This document shows, piece after piece, positions 28,860 to 34,668 of a stretch of DNA of 58,849 nt. This DNA comes from an uncultured Pelagibacteraceae bacterium (GTDB taxonomy: Bacteria; Pseudomonadota; Alphaproteobacteria; Pelagibacterales; Pelagibacteraceae). The stretch lies in NCBI GenBank assembly GCA_902603215.1, contig CACKTW010000003.1, positions 1-58,849 on the forward strand, given 5' to 3'. The position numbers were made by a program, and so were the translations under genes. The first letter of the stretch is position 1, and each line of letters starts with the position of its first letter. The notes under the pieces are model-generated. The model ran no database searches and was not told the DNA's origin. It worked only from the letters and a program-made list of their open reading frames with translations.

Positions 28860-29804
28860 TTAGTGTGATAAAAACTTTTCAGCTTCCAAGGCGGCAATAC
28901 ATCCCATACCAGCCGCAGTCACTGCTTGTCTAAATATTTTATCTTTAACATCACCAGCAGCATATACGCCCGGTATATTTGTAACAGTAGAATCCGGTTT
29001 GGTTATAAGATACCCTTCTTTATCCATATTTAACTGTCCTTTAAATAGAGATGTTGCTGGATCATGACCTATTGCTATAAAAAGTCCATCAATTTTTAAT
29101 TCGCTTGTTTTATTTGTCTTTACATTTTTTATTTTTATTCCTTTAACATTTTTTGGATTTTTTTCACCAAACACATCTTCAACAATTGTATCCCAAACAA
29201 TTTCAATTTTTTTATTATTCATTAATCTTGATTGTAAAAGTTTTTCTGCCCTCAACTTATCTCTTCGGTGTATTAAAGTAACTTTTGATGCAAATTTAGT
29301 TAAAAACATTGCTTCTTCGACAGCAGCATTTCCACCACCAACAACCGCAACTTCTTTTCCTTTAAAGAAGAAACCATCACATGTTGCACATGCCGATACC
29401 CCAAATCCTTTAAATTCTTGTTCTGATTTTATATTAAGCCATCTAGCTTGAGCTCCAGTAGAAATGATTAAACTATCAGCAGTATAAACTTGTCCCCCAT
29501 CTCCTATAGCCTTAAAAGGTTTTTCATTTAATTTTACTTCCTTAATATGATCTTCAATTACTTCTGTGCCAACAGTTGTTGCTTGTTTTTTCATTTGCTC
29601 CATTAACCATGGTCCTTGTATTACATCTGCGAAACCAGGATAATTTTCAACATCAGTTGTTGTAGATAGTTGGCCACCTGGCTCTACTCCATTTATAAGG
29701 ATTGGTTTTAGCATTGCTCTTGCAGCATAAACTGCAGCAGTATAACCAGCGGGACCAGATCCTAAAATTAACACTTTTGTGTGTTTTGTTGGATTTTGAC
29801 TCAT
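28860..29804 (-). CDS. trxB: Thioredoxin reductase
   Basis: TrxB moves electrons from NADPH to thioredoxin. The 314-residue flavoprotein has FAD loop GSGPAG (15-20), redox pair CATC at 139-142, NADPH loop GGGNAAVEEA, and C-terminal FAD motif GVYAAGDV. Low-molecular-weight type. It is monocistronic, with a 21-bp gap to the divergent ELM1-like gene. Confidence 0.95.
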   Translation of the reverse strand: MSQNPTKHTKVLILGSGPAGYTAAVYAARAMLKPILINGVEPGGQLSTTTDVENYPGFADVIQGPWLMEQMKKQATTVGTEVIEDHIKEVKLNEKPFKAIGDGGQVYTADSLIISTGAQARWLNIKSEQEFKGFGVSACATCDGFFFKGKEVAVVGGGNAAVEEAMFLTKFASKVTLIHRRDKLRAEKLLQSRLMNNKKIEIVWDTIVEDVFGEKNPKNVKGIKIKNVKTNKTSELKIDGLFIAIGHDPATSLFKGQLNMDKEGYLITKPDSTVTNIPGVYAAGDVKDKIFRQAVTAAGMGCIAALEAEKFLSH

Positions 29805-29825: not shown

Positions 29826-30764
29826 ATGTCTAAAATAAAAGGTGTTTTATTAACAGAAGGAATGCATGGAATGATAAGTCAAGTTGAAGGATTGGCAAAA
29901 GCTCTTGATTTAAATTTTATTCATCAAAAAGTTGAATTAAATCATTTTTGGCGTTTTTTACCTCCAAAGATTACCCCAATAAAGCAATTCATTTTAAAGG
30001 AAAAAATTGAATCCAATGCAAAAGTAGTAATTTCTTGTGGGAGAAAAAGCGTTATTCCATCTATAATTTTAAAGAAAAAATATAAGGAAAAAATTTTCAC
30101 GATTCATATACAAGAGCCAAAAGTTGGTTTAAATAATTTTGATTTAATTATTGTTCCGGAGCACGATAATTTGAGAGGAGAAAATGTGATTAGCTCAAAA
30201 GGTGCAATTCATTACATTACCAAAGCAGAAATTGAAAAATCAAAGCCTTACCTAACTAACAAAATTACAAGTAACAAAATAGTCACATTAATATTGGGAG
30301 GCCCAAACAAATATTATGATTTTAGCGTTGAAGAGTTAACGAAAGTATTTAATGAAATAAAATCAAAATTTATATCTCTTGAATACAAGGTAGTTGTAGT
30401 GCCTTCAATGAGAACCCCAAAAACAATTATTGATCTAGCAGTCAAAGAATTCGTTGGCCATGGATATGTTGTTCAAAATATAGATAGAAACGCATACTTA
30501 TCCTCGCTTGGACTTGCAAAAAATATAATTGTAACCTGTGATTCAACCTCAATGATCTCTGAGGCGGCAACATCTGGAAAACCTATTTTTATTGCCCATA
30601 TGAAAACCAAAAAGAATAACTATAGATTTAAAAAATTTTTTCAATTATTTAGAGAGATGGGAATTACTAGAAATTTAGGAGAAAAAATTGAAGATTGGAA
30701 TTATAATTATTTTAATGAAGCTGAACGAATAGCGAAAATTGTGAAAGAAAAATGGAATATTTAA
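29826..30764 (+). CDS. ELM1-like protein (GT-B glycosyltransferase fold)
   Basis: The 312-residue protein resembles the DUF1022/ELM1 family, named for a plant mitochondrial fission factor and common in Alphaproteobacteria without a known role. Recognisable parts are LLTEGMHGMISQVEGLAKAL, VVISCGRKSVIPSI, HIQEPKVGLNNFDLIIVPEHD, ILGGPNKYYDF and VTCDSTSMISEAATSGKPIFI, the last recalling the nucleotide-sugar site of GT-B enzymes. It overlaps the following oxygenase gene by 13 bp, so the two are probably made together. Substrate unknown. Confidence 0.75.
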   Translation: MSKIKGVLLTEGMHGMISQVEGLAKALDLNFIHQKVELNHFWRFLPPKITPIKQFILKEKIESNAKVVISCGRKSVIPSIILKKKYKEKIFTIHIQEPKVGLNNFDLIIVPEHDNLRGENVISSKGAIHYITKAEIEKSKPYLTNKITSNKIVTLILGGPNKYYDFSVEELTKVFNEIKSKFISLEYKVVVVPSMRTPKTIIDLAVKEFVGHGYVVQNIDRNAYLSSLGLAKNIIVTCDSTSMISEAATSGKPIFIAHMKTKKNNYRFKKFFQLFREMGITRNLGEKIEDWNYNYFNEAERIAKIVKEKWNI

Positions 30765-31414
30765 ATTCTTTGAAGAAAAGGTCAAAACATTTTACCTCTC
30801 CCTTTGAGCATTGGGAAATGAATGAACCCTTGAGCAAGGAATCAATAAAAGAGATTTGTGACACTGAAATTGCAGATATAAGCAAAATGAATATTAATTA
30901 TGATGGAACAAGAGCTATTGATGGTGGTGAAGGAAAATTTAGAGAGGGTATAGCAAGCGGAGGCAAAGCTATAAAATTCAGATGTTTTATTGACGCAAAT
31001 AATTCAAGAGATTTTCCTAGTTTATCCAATTTAATTGATGAGCTTAGATTAAAAGATACTTACGAATATATTGGTGAATTAATTAAAAAAGATTTATCCA
31101 ATTCATATATTAGAGTTGAGGTTATATGTGATCGCAAAGGGTTTTGGTTAAAACCACATTGTGACATTAAAGAAAAATTAATGTCATCATTGCTATTTGT
31201 TAATCCTTTTAATGAGTCAGAAAATCTAGGAACTGATTTTTATGATGAAAAATTGAAAATAGCAAAGACAGTTCCGTATAAAAATAATTATGGTTATCTT
31301 TTTACCACTGGACCAAAAGCTTGGCATGGAATGGAAAAAAAGGAAATTAAAAAAGAAAGAAGATCTCTCCTAATAAATTATGTTACTTTTAAAACTGATT
31401 GGAAAGTAAAATAA
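30752..31414 (+). CDS. Probable 2-oxoglutarate/Fe(II)-type oxygenase, function unknown
   Basis: The 220-residue protein shows the facial triad spacing of the double-stranded beta-helix oxygenases: H136-x-D138 in KPHCDIKEK, a distal H192 in AWHGME, and an Arg (203 or 204) in RRSLLINYV that could hold 2-oxoglutarate. GTDFYD near 160 also fits. I infer an Fe(II)-dependent oxygenase, possibly acting on a glycan or lipid, because the gene overlaps the ELM1-like glycosyltransferase-fold gene. No signal peptide. The substrate is not predictable. Confidence 0.6.
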   Translation: MEYLNSLKKRSKHFTSPFEHWEMNEPLSKESIKEICDTEIADISKMNINYDGTRAIDGGEGKFREGIASGGKAIKFRCFIDANNSRDFPSLSNLIDELRLKDTYEYIGELIKKDLSNSYIRVEVICDRKGFWLKPHCDIKEKLMSSLLFVNPFNESENLGTDFYDEKLKIAKTVPYKNNYGYLFTTGPKAWHGMEKKEIKKERRSLLINYVTFKTDWKVK

Positions 31415-31440: not shown

Positions 31441-34400
31441 TTATTTAATGTCTTGGAGAGAAGTGACGGTAATTTTTTTTAATTTCAAAGATTTAATAGC
31501 CTCTAAACATGCATAAGCTGTTGACATATTTGTGCAGTAGGGAACCTTGTTTATTAATGTTGCTCTTCTTAAAGCAATTGCGTCTTGAACACGATATTCA
31601 CTTCTTCCACCTCCGGTATTAATTACTAAAGCAATTTTTTTTGAATTTAACACATCAACTATGTGTGGCGAACCTCCGCTAACTTTATTTATTTTTTTAC
31701 ATTTTAAGCCACTTCTTTTGATTGCATTTGCCGTACCTTCTGTGCCACAAAGTGTAAAATTTAATTTTACAAGTTGTTTTGCTAAATCTACTCCTTCATT
31801 TTTATGATTGTCTTTTAGAGAAATGAAAGCCAAGCCTTTAGTTGGCAAAGAATTTTCAGAAGCAATTTGACTTTTAGCGTATGCAAGACCGAAATCTTTA
31901 TCTAATCCCATTACTTCTCCCGTAGATTTCATTTCAGGTCCTAACAAAACATCAACATTTGGAAATTTATTAAATGGAAAAACAGCCTCTTTAACTGCAT
32001 ACATATTTTTATTTTTGTTTTTTAAATTAAATTTAGATAATTTTTCACCTGCCATTATTCTTGAGGCAATTTTAGCCAAAGGGATTCCTTTAGCTTTAGA
32101 AACAAAAGGGACGGTCCTGCTAGCTCTTGGATTGACCTCAATAATAAAAATTTCATCATTTTTAATTGCAAATTGAACATTCATAAAACCTTTGACTTTT
32201 AGAGCCAAAGCTAATTTTTTTGTTTGATTATTAATTTCTTTAATTAATTCTTTCTTAATAGCAATAGGAGGAAGGCAGCATGCTGAATCACCAGAATGTA
32301 TGCCGGCTTCCTCAATATGTTGCATGATACCTGCAACAAAAACTTTTTTGCCATCTGAAATAGCATCTACATCAACTTCCATTGCATTATTTATAAATTT
32401 ATCAATTAAAATTGGATTATTTTCTCCAGCTTTAAAAGCTTCTTGAACAAAATCTTTTAGCTGATTTTTTTCATAAACTATTTCCATCGCTCTACCACCC
32501 AATACATATGATGGTCGGACTAATAATGGTAATTCAATCTTCGAAGCAATTTTAATTGCCTCGTCATATGTTTTTGCAATTCCACTATCTGCTTGTTTTA
32601 ATTTTAATTTAATTAAAAGTTTTCTGAATCTTTCTCTATCTTCAGCTAAATCAATAGAAGAATATTGAGTTCCTATTATTGGGAATGAATTTTCATTGAG
32701 AAATTTTGCTAGTTTAATTGGAGTTTGGCCTCCAAATTGAGCTATTATTCCAACTAAATTTCCATTTGATTTTTCTTTTAGTATGATGTTGTGAACATAC
32801 TCTTCTATTAATGGCTCGAAGTATAATCTATCACTTGTGTCATAATCAGTAGAGACAGTTTCAGGGTTACAATTTATCATTATTGTCTCAAAACCAGATT
32901 CTTTCAAAGAGTAACTTGCTTGACAACAGCAGTAATCAAATTCAATTCCTTGACCTATTCTGTTTGGCCCTCCACCTAAAATAATAATTTTTTTCTTTGA
33001 AGATGGATTAGCTTCACATTCAGTATTTATTGAAAAGTTTCTTTGATATGTGGAATACATGTAAGGAGTGAACGATTTGAATTCAGCCGCACAAGTATCA
33101 ACTTTTTTATAAACAGGAAAAACTTTAAGAGCCACTCTCTTTGATCTCACAAGTTTTTCACTCATATTAGAAAGTTTAGCAATTTTTTTATCTGAAAATC
33201 CTATAGATTTTAATTTATTAAATTCATTGAATTTTTTTGGTATTCCTTTTTTTTTTATCTCGTTTTCCGAATCTACAATTTCTTTTATTTGCTCCAAAAA
33301 CCATGGATCAATTCCAGACAATTTATATATTTTTCTTAAATCTATTTTTTTTCTTATCGCCTCAGCAACCAAAAGCAATTTATTTGGAATATTTATTTTT
33401 AATTTTTTCTCAATTTTTTTTTTATTTAAATTAAAAATTCTATCTAATCCTGATAAACCAATTTCTAAAGATACAAGTGCTTTTTGCAAAGACTCTTTAA
33501 AATTTCTGCCAATAGCCATTGCTTCCCCTACAGATTTCATTGATGTACCTAAAATAGCTGGTGATTGAGAAAATTTTTCAAAAGTAAATCTTGGTACTTT
33601 AGTTACAACATAATCAATAGTTGGCTCAAATGAAGCAGGAGTTGTCTTTGTTATTTCATTTTTTAATTCATCAAGAGTGTATCCAATTGCTAATTTTGCT
33701 GCAATTTTTGCAATAGGAAATCCCGTTGCCTTTGATGCTAACGCTGATGACCTTGAAACTCTTGGATTCATTTCAATTATAACCATTCTTCCATTCTTGG
33801 GGTTAATTGCGAATTGAACATTTGATCCTCCAGTTTCAACGCCAATTTTTCTTAAGCATGCAATAGATGCATTTCTCATAACTTGGTATTCTTTATCTGT
33901 AAGTGTTAAAGCTGGCGCAACAGTAATCGAGTCTCCAGTATGAATACCCATTGGATCAACATTTTCTATTGAGCAAACAATTATACAGTTATCTTTTTTA
34001 TCTCTAACAACCTCCATTTCAAATTCTTTCCATTTCTCCAAACATTCTTCAACAAGAACTTGATTTACGGGAGAGGCATGCAAGCCTTCTTTAATAATTT
34101 TAAAAAATTCTTTTTTTGATCTTGCAATACCTCCGCCTAACCCACCTAAAGTAAAAGACGGCCTTATAATTGCCGGCAAACCAATTTTTTTAAAACATTT
34201 TTGAGCTTGTTTAATATTGTTCACTATCTTAGATCTTGGAAGGTCTAGCCCAATATCACTCATATTTTTTCTAAACTTTTTTCTATCTTCAGCGTTAGAG
34301 ATGGCTTTTGCATTTGCGCCAATTAGTTCAATCTTATATTTTTTTAACAATCCTACTTTTTCTGCTTTGATTGCTAAATTTAATGCTGTTTGTCCTCCCA

Positions 34401-34668
34401 TTGTTGGTAAAATTGCATTAGGGTTTTCTTTTTTTAAAATTTTTTCCAAGATATCAATTGTAATTGGTTCAATGTATGTCTTATCCGCAACACCAGGATC
34501 TGTCATTATAGTTGCTGGATTAGAATTAATTAAAACAACTTTGTAACCCTCATCTTTTAATGCCTTGCATGCCTGTGTTCCAGAGTAATCAAATTCACAT
34601 GCTTGACCAATTATTATTGGACCAGCACCAACGACTAAAATTTTTTTAATATCTTTTCTTTTTGGCAT
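31441..34668 (-). CDS. carB: Carbamoyl phosphate synthase large subunit
   Basis: CarB uses ammonia from CarA, bicarbonate and two ATP to make carbamoyl phosphate for pyrimidines and arginine. The 1075-residue protein has the duplicated ATP-grasp halves ([20 protein letters not shown] and [39 protein letters not shown] and [19 protein letters not shown]) and a C-terminal MGS allosteric domain ([19 protein letters not shown]). It overlaps the end of carA by 23 bp. Confidence 0.98.

Follow-up and report, generated by a model that had tools for sequence, protein, structure and literature searches.

A conserved pair of an ELM1-family glycosyltransferase and a predicted 2-oxoglutarate oxygenase in SAR11 bacteria: a candidate two-step Kdo module of lipopolysaccharide

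What do two overlapping genes lodged between trxB and carB do in a SAR11 bacterium, and do they serve one pathway? The question is raised by a stretch of 58,849 nucleotides (hereafter the window; contig CACKTW010000003.1) whose source, an 805-kb Pelagibacterales-like (SAR11) genome, is approximately 70% complete. ORF A (29826-30764, plus strand) begins with ATG and encodes 312 amino acids; ORF B (30752-31414, plus strand) also begins with ATG and encodes 220. The two genes are arranged head to tail, ORF A first, and are flanked by trxB (28860-29804) and carB (31441-34668), both on the minus strand. The original prediction described an ELM1-family GT-B protein whose gene overlaps by 13 bp that of a protein with an HxD...H triad and a C-terminal Arg, and suggested a single pathway for both, perhaps one of a surface glycan or lipid. 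The coordinates and the 13-nt overlap (30752-30764) were exactly as claimed, and an overlap of this kind suggests translational coupling. We propose, with a probability of roughly 0.55, that the pair is an inner-core lipopolysaccharide (LPS) module in which a KdoT-type transferase is followed by a Kdo-oxidizing 2-oxoglutarate oxygenase.

The family assignment of ORF A was confirmed by comparison with Pfam, in which it matched PF06258 (Mito_fiss_Elm1) with E=4.3e-75 and 253.1 bits against a cut-off of 27, the match covering residues 15-310 and positions 2-304 of the 304-position model. Weak, sub-threshold matches to 3-hydroxyanthranilate dioxygenase were taken as chance. An AlphaFold2 model (pLDDT 92) has a GT-B fold, and its neighbors by fold in the PDB are UDP-GlcNAc 2-epimerases and MGD1-type enzymes. 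The original prediction also called the bacterial role of ELM1 unknown, a statement that is now out of date. In Acinetobacter baumannii, the third Kdo depends on the ELM1-like protein A1S_2903 (PMC10936431), and the purified protein is a CMP-Kdo transferase in vitro that adds KdoIII to Kdo2-lipid IVA, for which it was named KdoT (PMC12856342). These two studies provide the first bacterial function for the ELM1 family, and an ELM1 homologue from Rickettsia partly complements the Acinetobacter mutant (PMC12856342). This activity of KdoT allows a name to be put to the glycan: the inner-core Kdo of LPS.

We then compared the residues that matter in KdoT with those conserved in the family. Across 56 aligned ELM1 family members, G12, H113-D114, S194-x-R196-T197 and D239-S240 of ORF A are kept in 55-56 proteins. 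The SxRT motif (codons S194-M195-R196-T197, 30405-30416, plus strand) has its Ser, second Arg and Thr in all 56. Mutagenesis of the corresponding SRRT of KdoT revealed that the second Arg (R180) matters while the first does not (PMC12856342), and it is this dispensable first Arg that is replaced by Met, Tyr, Val or Ile in SAR11 members. The His-Asp pair (codons H113-D114, 30162-30167, plus strand) is likewise invariant in 56 of 56, with spacing that matches H109-D110 of KdoT, which are part of the active site although single alanine changes there are not inactivating (PMC12856342). On family, motif, genomic context and the published activity of a distant homologue, ORF A, an ELM1/GtrOC1-family GT-B glycosyltransferase, very probably acts as a Kdo transferase of the KdoT type.

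ORF B fell below the threshold of PF13640 (2OG-FeII_Oxy_3; E=0.012, 16.9 bits against a cut-off of 27), and profile searches placed it in no curated family above cut-off. In ORF B, H136-x-D138 (codons H136-C137-D138, 31157-31165), the predicted third iron ligand H192 (31325-31327) and R203 (31358-31360), which is predicted to bind the 2-oxoglutarate carboxylate, all on the plus strand, are invariant across 37 aligned homologues, phage copies included, and likewise in distant paralogues within the class. Such a triad with an Arg is the signature of Fe(II)/2-oxoglutarate oxygenases, and by these residues ORF B is a predicted member of that superfamily. The double-stranded beta-helix expected of the second protein was recovered in its AlphaFold2 model (pLDDT 84; residues 53-73 of low confidence), whose best fold neighbors in the PDB are 2-oxoglutarate oxygenases with E values down to 3e-7 (PasI, Tpa1, PolD). 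OGFOD1, PHD and Pseudomonas P4H were, like Tpa1, also among the fold neighbors, many of which hydroxylate proteins. When the sequence profile of the ORF B family was compared with the PDB, the matches were PasI (E=1.3e-7) and, weakly, PolD, with no others. The PasI structure contains amino-hydroxy-octosyl acid phosphate, and PolD has been assigned a role in degrading octosyl acid, a nucleoside of an eight-carbon sugar acid.

Among 297 genomes of the order, a homologue of ORF A was detected in 269 and one of ORF B in 258. None of 80 named Pelagibacterales loci has a gap of more than 4 nt between the two genes, and where the genes overlap they do so by 1-23 nt; trxB is beside the pair in 78 of the 80 and carB in 77. 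The pairing is beyond chance, given this order-wide presence and consistently close spacing, and it is a near-fixed feature of SAR11 rather than a peculiarity of the window genome. However, the flanking genes are equally conserved as part of the frozen SAR11 gene order, and adjacency within the order must therefore be counted as one observation, not 80; we rejected the use of SAR11 genomes as independent support for coupling, because the trxB-carB neighborhood is frozen throughout. The exceptions carry more information. In family f2 (L290-L295), at least six genomes have lost ORF B but keep ELM1 and its flanks intact. Conversely, ORF B without ELM1 was not seen in any of the 297 genomes; the sole candidate (G105) starts at a contig end and was rejected for that reason. 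ELM1 outlasts ORF B and the reverse is unseen, an asymmetry that would be expected if ORF B tailors the product of ORF A. One f2 locus (L292) retains a 54-amino acid remnant of ORF B in place, and a 156-amino acid, GreA-sized gene comes next at L290-L295.

The original prediction proposed testing whether the two families occur together across Alphaproteobacteria, and a pairing of ELM1 with a 2-oxoglutarate oxygenase does recur there. Of 387 genomes sampled from the class, 318 have ELM1. Close relatives of ORF B (type 1) were found at E<1e-30 in 36 class genomes outside the order, and every one of the 36 has ELM1. A second oxygenase group (type 2), homologous to type 1 (hhalign probability 98.7), often occupies the place of type 1 beside ELM1. 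A type 1 or type 2 gene lies within 300 nt of ELM1 on the same strand in 44 of the 149 class genomes with listed ELM1 coordinates, mostly downstream of ELM1 and in some cases upstream; in two genomes the order is ELM1, type 1, type 2, and in families f27 and f122 ELM1 and type 1 overlap or abut. GreA-, TrxB- and CarB-type genes recur around ELM1 in the class, and by comparison with this arrangement ELM1 and ORF B appear to have been inverted as a unit in SAR11. Together, the conserved neighborhood in the order and the recurrence of the pairing in the class support the proposal of a single pathway on a surface glycan or lipid.

Homologues of ORF B are also carried by marine phages, and these offer the strongest independent clue to its function. 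Type 1 homologues occur on approximately 45 marine viral contigs and mostly share 41-47% identity with ORF B along its entire length. They belong to a sugar-modification cassette that also encodes glycosyltransferases, FkbM methyltransferases and a carbamoyltransferase and that adjoins genes for ribonucleotide reductase, RuvC and, at L200-L246, ferredoxin. That the oxygenase is carried in such sugar-modifying sets suggests that it alters a surface recognized by phages. On contig L228 (1850-3207), the ORF B homologue overlaps by 19 nt a gene for CMP-Kdo synthase (NF003952, 223.6 bits against a cut-off of 193). Two single-protein scans of phage contigs for further overlaps of this kind returned only L228, the contig L307 having a type 1 relative with no KdsB within approximately 3 kb, and no named phage genome in INPHARED has an ORF B homologue at E<=1e-8. 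Phylogenetic analysis of the proteins joined the phage copies to SAR11 family f2 sequences (support 98/88), which makes exchange with SAR11 relatives likely. A cassette protein (v1) considered as an ELM1 relative was rejected (hhalign probability 0.5%). L228 also holds a fragment of another 2-oxoglutarate oxygenase (phrog_81) upstream and a tail-fiber gene downstream.

The same cassettes can be read differently. ORF A could be KdoT-like while ORF B, merely co-expressed with it, modifies some other part of the surface glycan or of lipid A, either a different sugar or an acyl chain. The carbamoyl-, methyl- and glycosyltransferases that accompany the phage homologues do not assign a substrate, and type 1 and type 2 genes also occur away from ELM1: type 2 is found in genomes with no detected ELM1, and tandem type 2-type 1 genes in other alphaproteobacteria have unrelated neighbors. 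We nevertheless consider this explanation unlikely, as L228 ties an ORF B homologue directly to CMP-Kdo synthase, and ORF B was never seen without ELM1 in the order genomes. As for the tandems themselves, those at L266, L270 and L271 lack ELM1 and lie near radical SAM, Crp/Fnr-type regulator or COX1-type oxidase genes; a link to low-oxygen loci is possible. The idea that they are LPS clusters was unsupported, the sampled neighbors being radical SAM, Crp/Fnr, COX1, acyl-CoA dehydrogenase and TctC genes.

If ORF A is a Kdo transferase, its host should have both a supply of CMP-Kdo and a Kdo-lipid acceptor, and evidence for each was found. The window's own genome encodes KdsB (TIGR00466, 166 bits against a cut-off of 155). 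WaaA was detected in 24 of 27 order genomes tested, including all single-contig ones, and a complete relative carries an msbA-waaA-lpxK-lpxL stretch; the assembly that holds the window, approximately 70% complete, gave no WaaA match. At the level of the class, WaaA was present in 36 of 40 genomes with ELM1 and in 22 of 40 without it (p=0.0009, in a test that ignores relatedness). Rhizobial relatives carry the NCBI name 'ELM1/GtrOC1 family putative glycosyltransferase', and on Pararhizobium p2 the ELM1 gene adjoins a gene for 3-deoxy-manno-octulosonate cytidylyltransferase (CMP-Kdo synthase) and other glycosyltransferase genes. In a second alternative, the donor of ORF A would be some other acidic nucleotide sugar, and ELM1 would be a broader glycosyltransferase group with KdoT as one specialized branch. 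Four ELM1-positive genomes gave no WaaA match (G325, with three ELM1 copies; G361; G397; and G343, with a weak ELM1 match); KdoT activity is therefore probably not shared by the whole family, which may hold more than one activity. Moreover, some genomes hold two to five ELM1 copies, the top fold neighbors use UDP-sugars, and ORF A shares only 24-33% identity with the other alphaproteobacterial members. Against this stand the association of ELM1 with WaaA, the rhizobial CMP-Kdo synthase neighbors, the conservation of SxRT and His-Asp, and the partial function of the Rickettsia homologue, and for ORF A itself we regard a different sugar as distinctly improbable.

That ORF B is instead a protein hydroxylase of the P4H or OGFOD1 type, acting for example on a translation factor or ribosomal protein and fixed beside ELM1 by synteny, is very improbable: its fold neighbors Tpa1, OGFOD1, PHD and Pseudomonas P4H, the frozen gene order and the tandems near regulator and oxidase genes would fit, but the phage sugar-modification cassettes and the CMP-Kdo synthase overlap, the restriction of the PDB profile matches to PasI and PolD, the loss of ORF B while ELM1 stays in place, and the several arrangements in which the pairing occurs do not.

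Returning to the two-step Kdo module, KdsB would make CMP-Kdo, the donor for ORF A. WaaA would first make Kdo-lipid A, to which ORF A, acting as an inverting GT-B enzyme, would then add a Kdo residue. ORF B, whose translation is probably coupled to that of ORF A through the overlapping frame, would oxidize the Kdo added by ORF A, most simply by hydroxylation as in the conversion of Kdo to Ko by KdoO; its substrate would be the lipid-bound Kdo or the sugar nucleotide. We infer the use of CMP-Kdo by ORF A, Kdo as the substrate of ORF B, and the product, for which a Ko-like sugar is the simplest guess. The coupling of the genes, their asymmetric loss, the phage context and the solved relatives indicate that ORF B is probably an oxygenase for the ORF A-added Kdo residue or for a Kdo-containing sugar. 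Several results weigh against the module as a whole: ORF B falls outside the KdoO family, many of its fold neighbors hydroxylate proteins, type 2-type 1 tandems lie in contexts other than LPS, type 2 is present in genomes with no detected ELM1, a few ELM1-positive genomes gave no WaaA match, and the overlap with KdsB was seen on a single phage contig. A broader proposal, which we hold tentatively and at somewhat short of even odds, is that ORF B founds a second Kdo oxygenase lineage, unrelated to KdoO and translationally coupled to a KdoT-type transferase; that its presence in nearly all SAR11 gives these abundant marine cells an oxidized Kdo in the LPS; and that marine phages acquired the oxygenase, in one case together with a CMP-Kdo synthase, as a means of altering the sugar displayed by the host or by the phages.

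Throughout a bacterial class, ELM1 carries the annotation of a mitochondrial fission protein, yet its most likely role there is to build LPS. If the two genes were assigned as a Kdo transferase and as a new Kdo oxygenase, a concrete chemical trait of the SAR11 surface could be predicted, and the phage-borne oxygenase copies would gain a testable purpose. Such an assignment also raises the question of whether plant ELM1 descended from an LPS enzyme that the mitochondrial ancestor possessed. The same kdsB-GT92-ELM1-glycosyltransferase order was observed on S. meliloti pSymB and Pararhizobium p2 (L302, L303), and the rhizobial kdsB-GT92-ELM1 cluster is an easy genetic system for the rhizobial ELM1.

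Among known systems, KdoT (A1S_2903/GtrOC1) of A. baumannii is like ORF A in belonging to the ELM1 family, in its GT-B fold, in an SxRT motif with a key second Arg and in its His-Asp pair, a comparison that rests on published KdoT residues rather than direct sequence alignment; by this likeness CMP-Kdo is the expected substrate of ORF A. The two differ in that the partner of KdoT is GnaT while that of ORF A is a 2-oxoglutarate oxygenase, and in that the ORF A gene, unlike KdoT, lies outside an LPS cluster. The plant ELM1 that gives the Pfam family its name is a mitochondrial fission factor whose role in DRP3A recruitment is without counterpart here, and the name is misleading in bacteria. For ORF B, the closest solved relatives by profile, and among the closest by fold, are the 2-oxoglutarate dioxygenases PolD and PasI (9blq, 9ei6, 9ei7), whose substrates are high-carbon (eight-carbon) sugar-acid nucleosides; they differ in being approximately 16-17% identical to ORF B and in serving nucleoside-antibiotic pathways rather than LPS. 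The functional precedent is KdoO, the Kdo-3-hydroxylase, an Fe(II)/2-oxoglutarate enzyme that acts on Kdo after the Kdo transferase (Chung and Raetz 2011) and so resembles the proposed ORF B in cofactors, substrate and place in the pathway. KdoO belongs to PF11004 (Kdo_hydroxy), whereas ORF B gave no match to that family at E up to 10, for which reason membership was rejected; KdoO was absent from its best 50 fold matches, and a search of 13 order genomes, run without a positive control, returned no PF11004 match. Should ORF B do the job of KdoO, it would represent a different branch of the superfamily.
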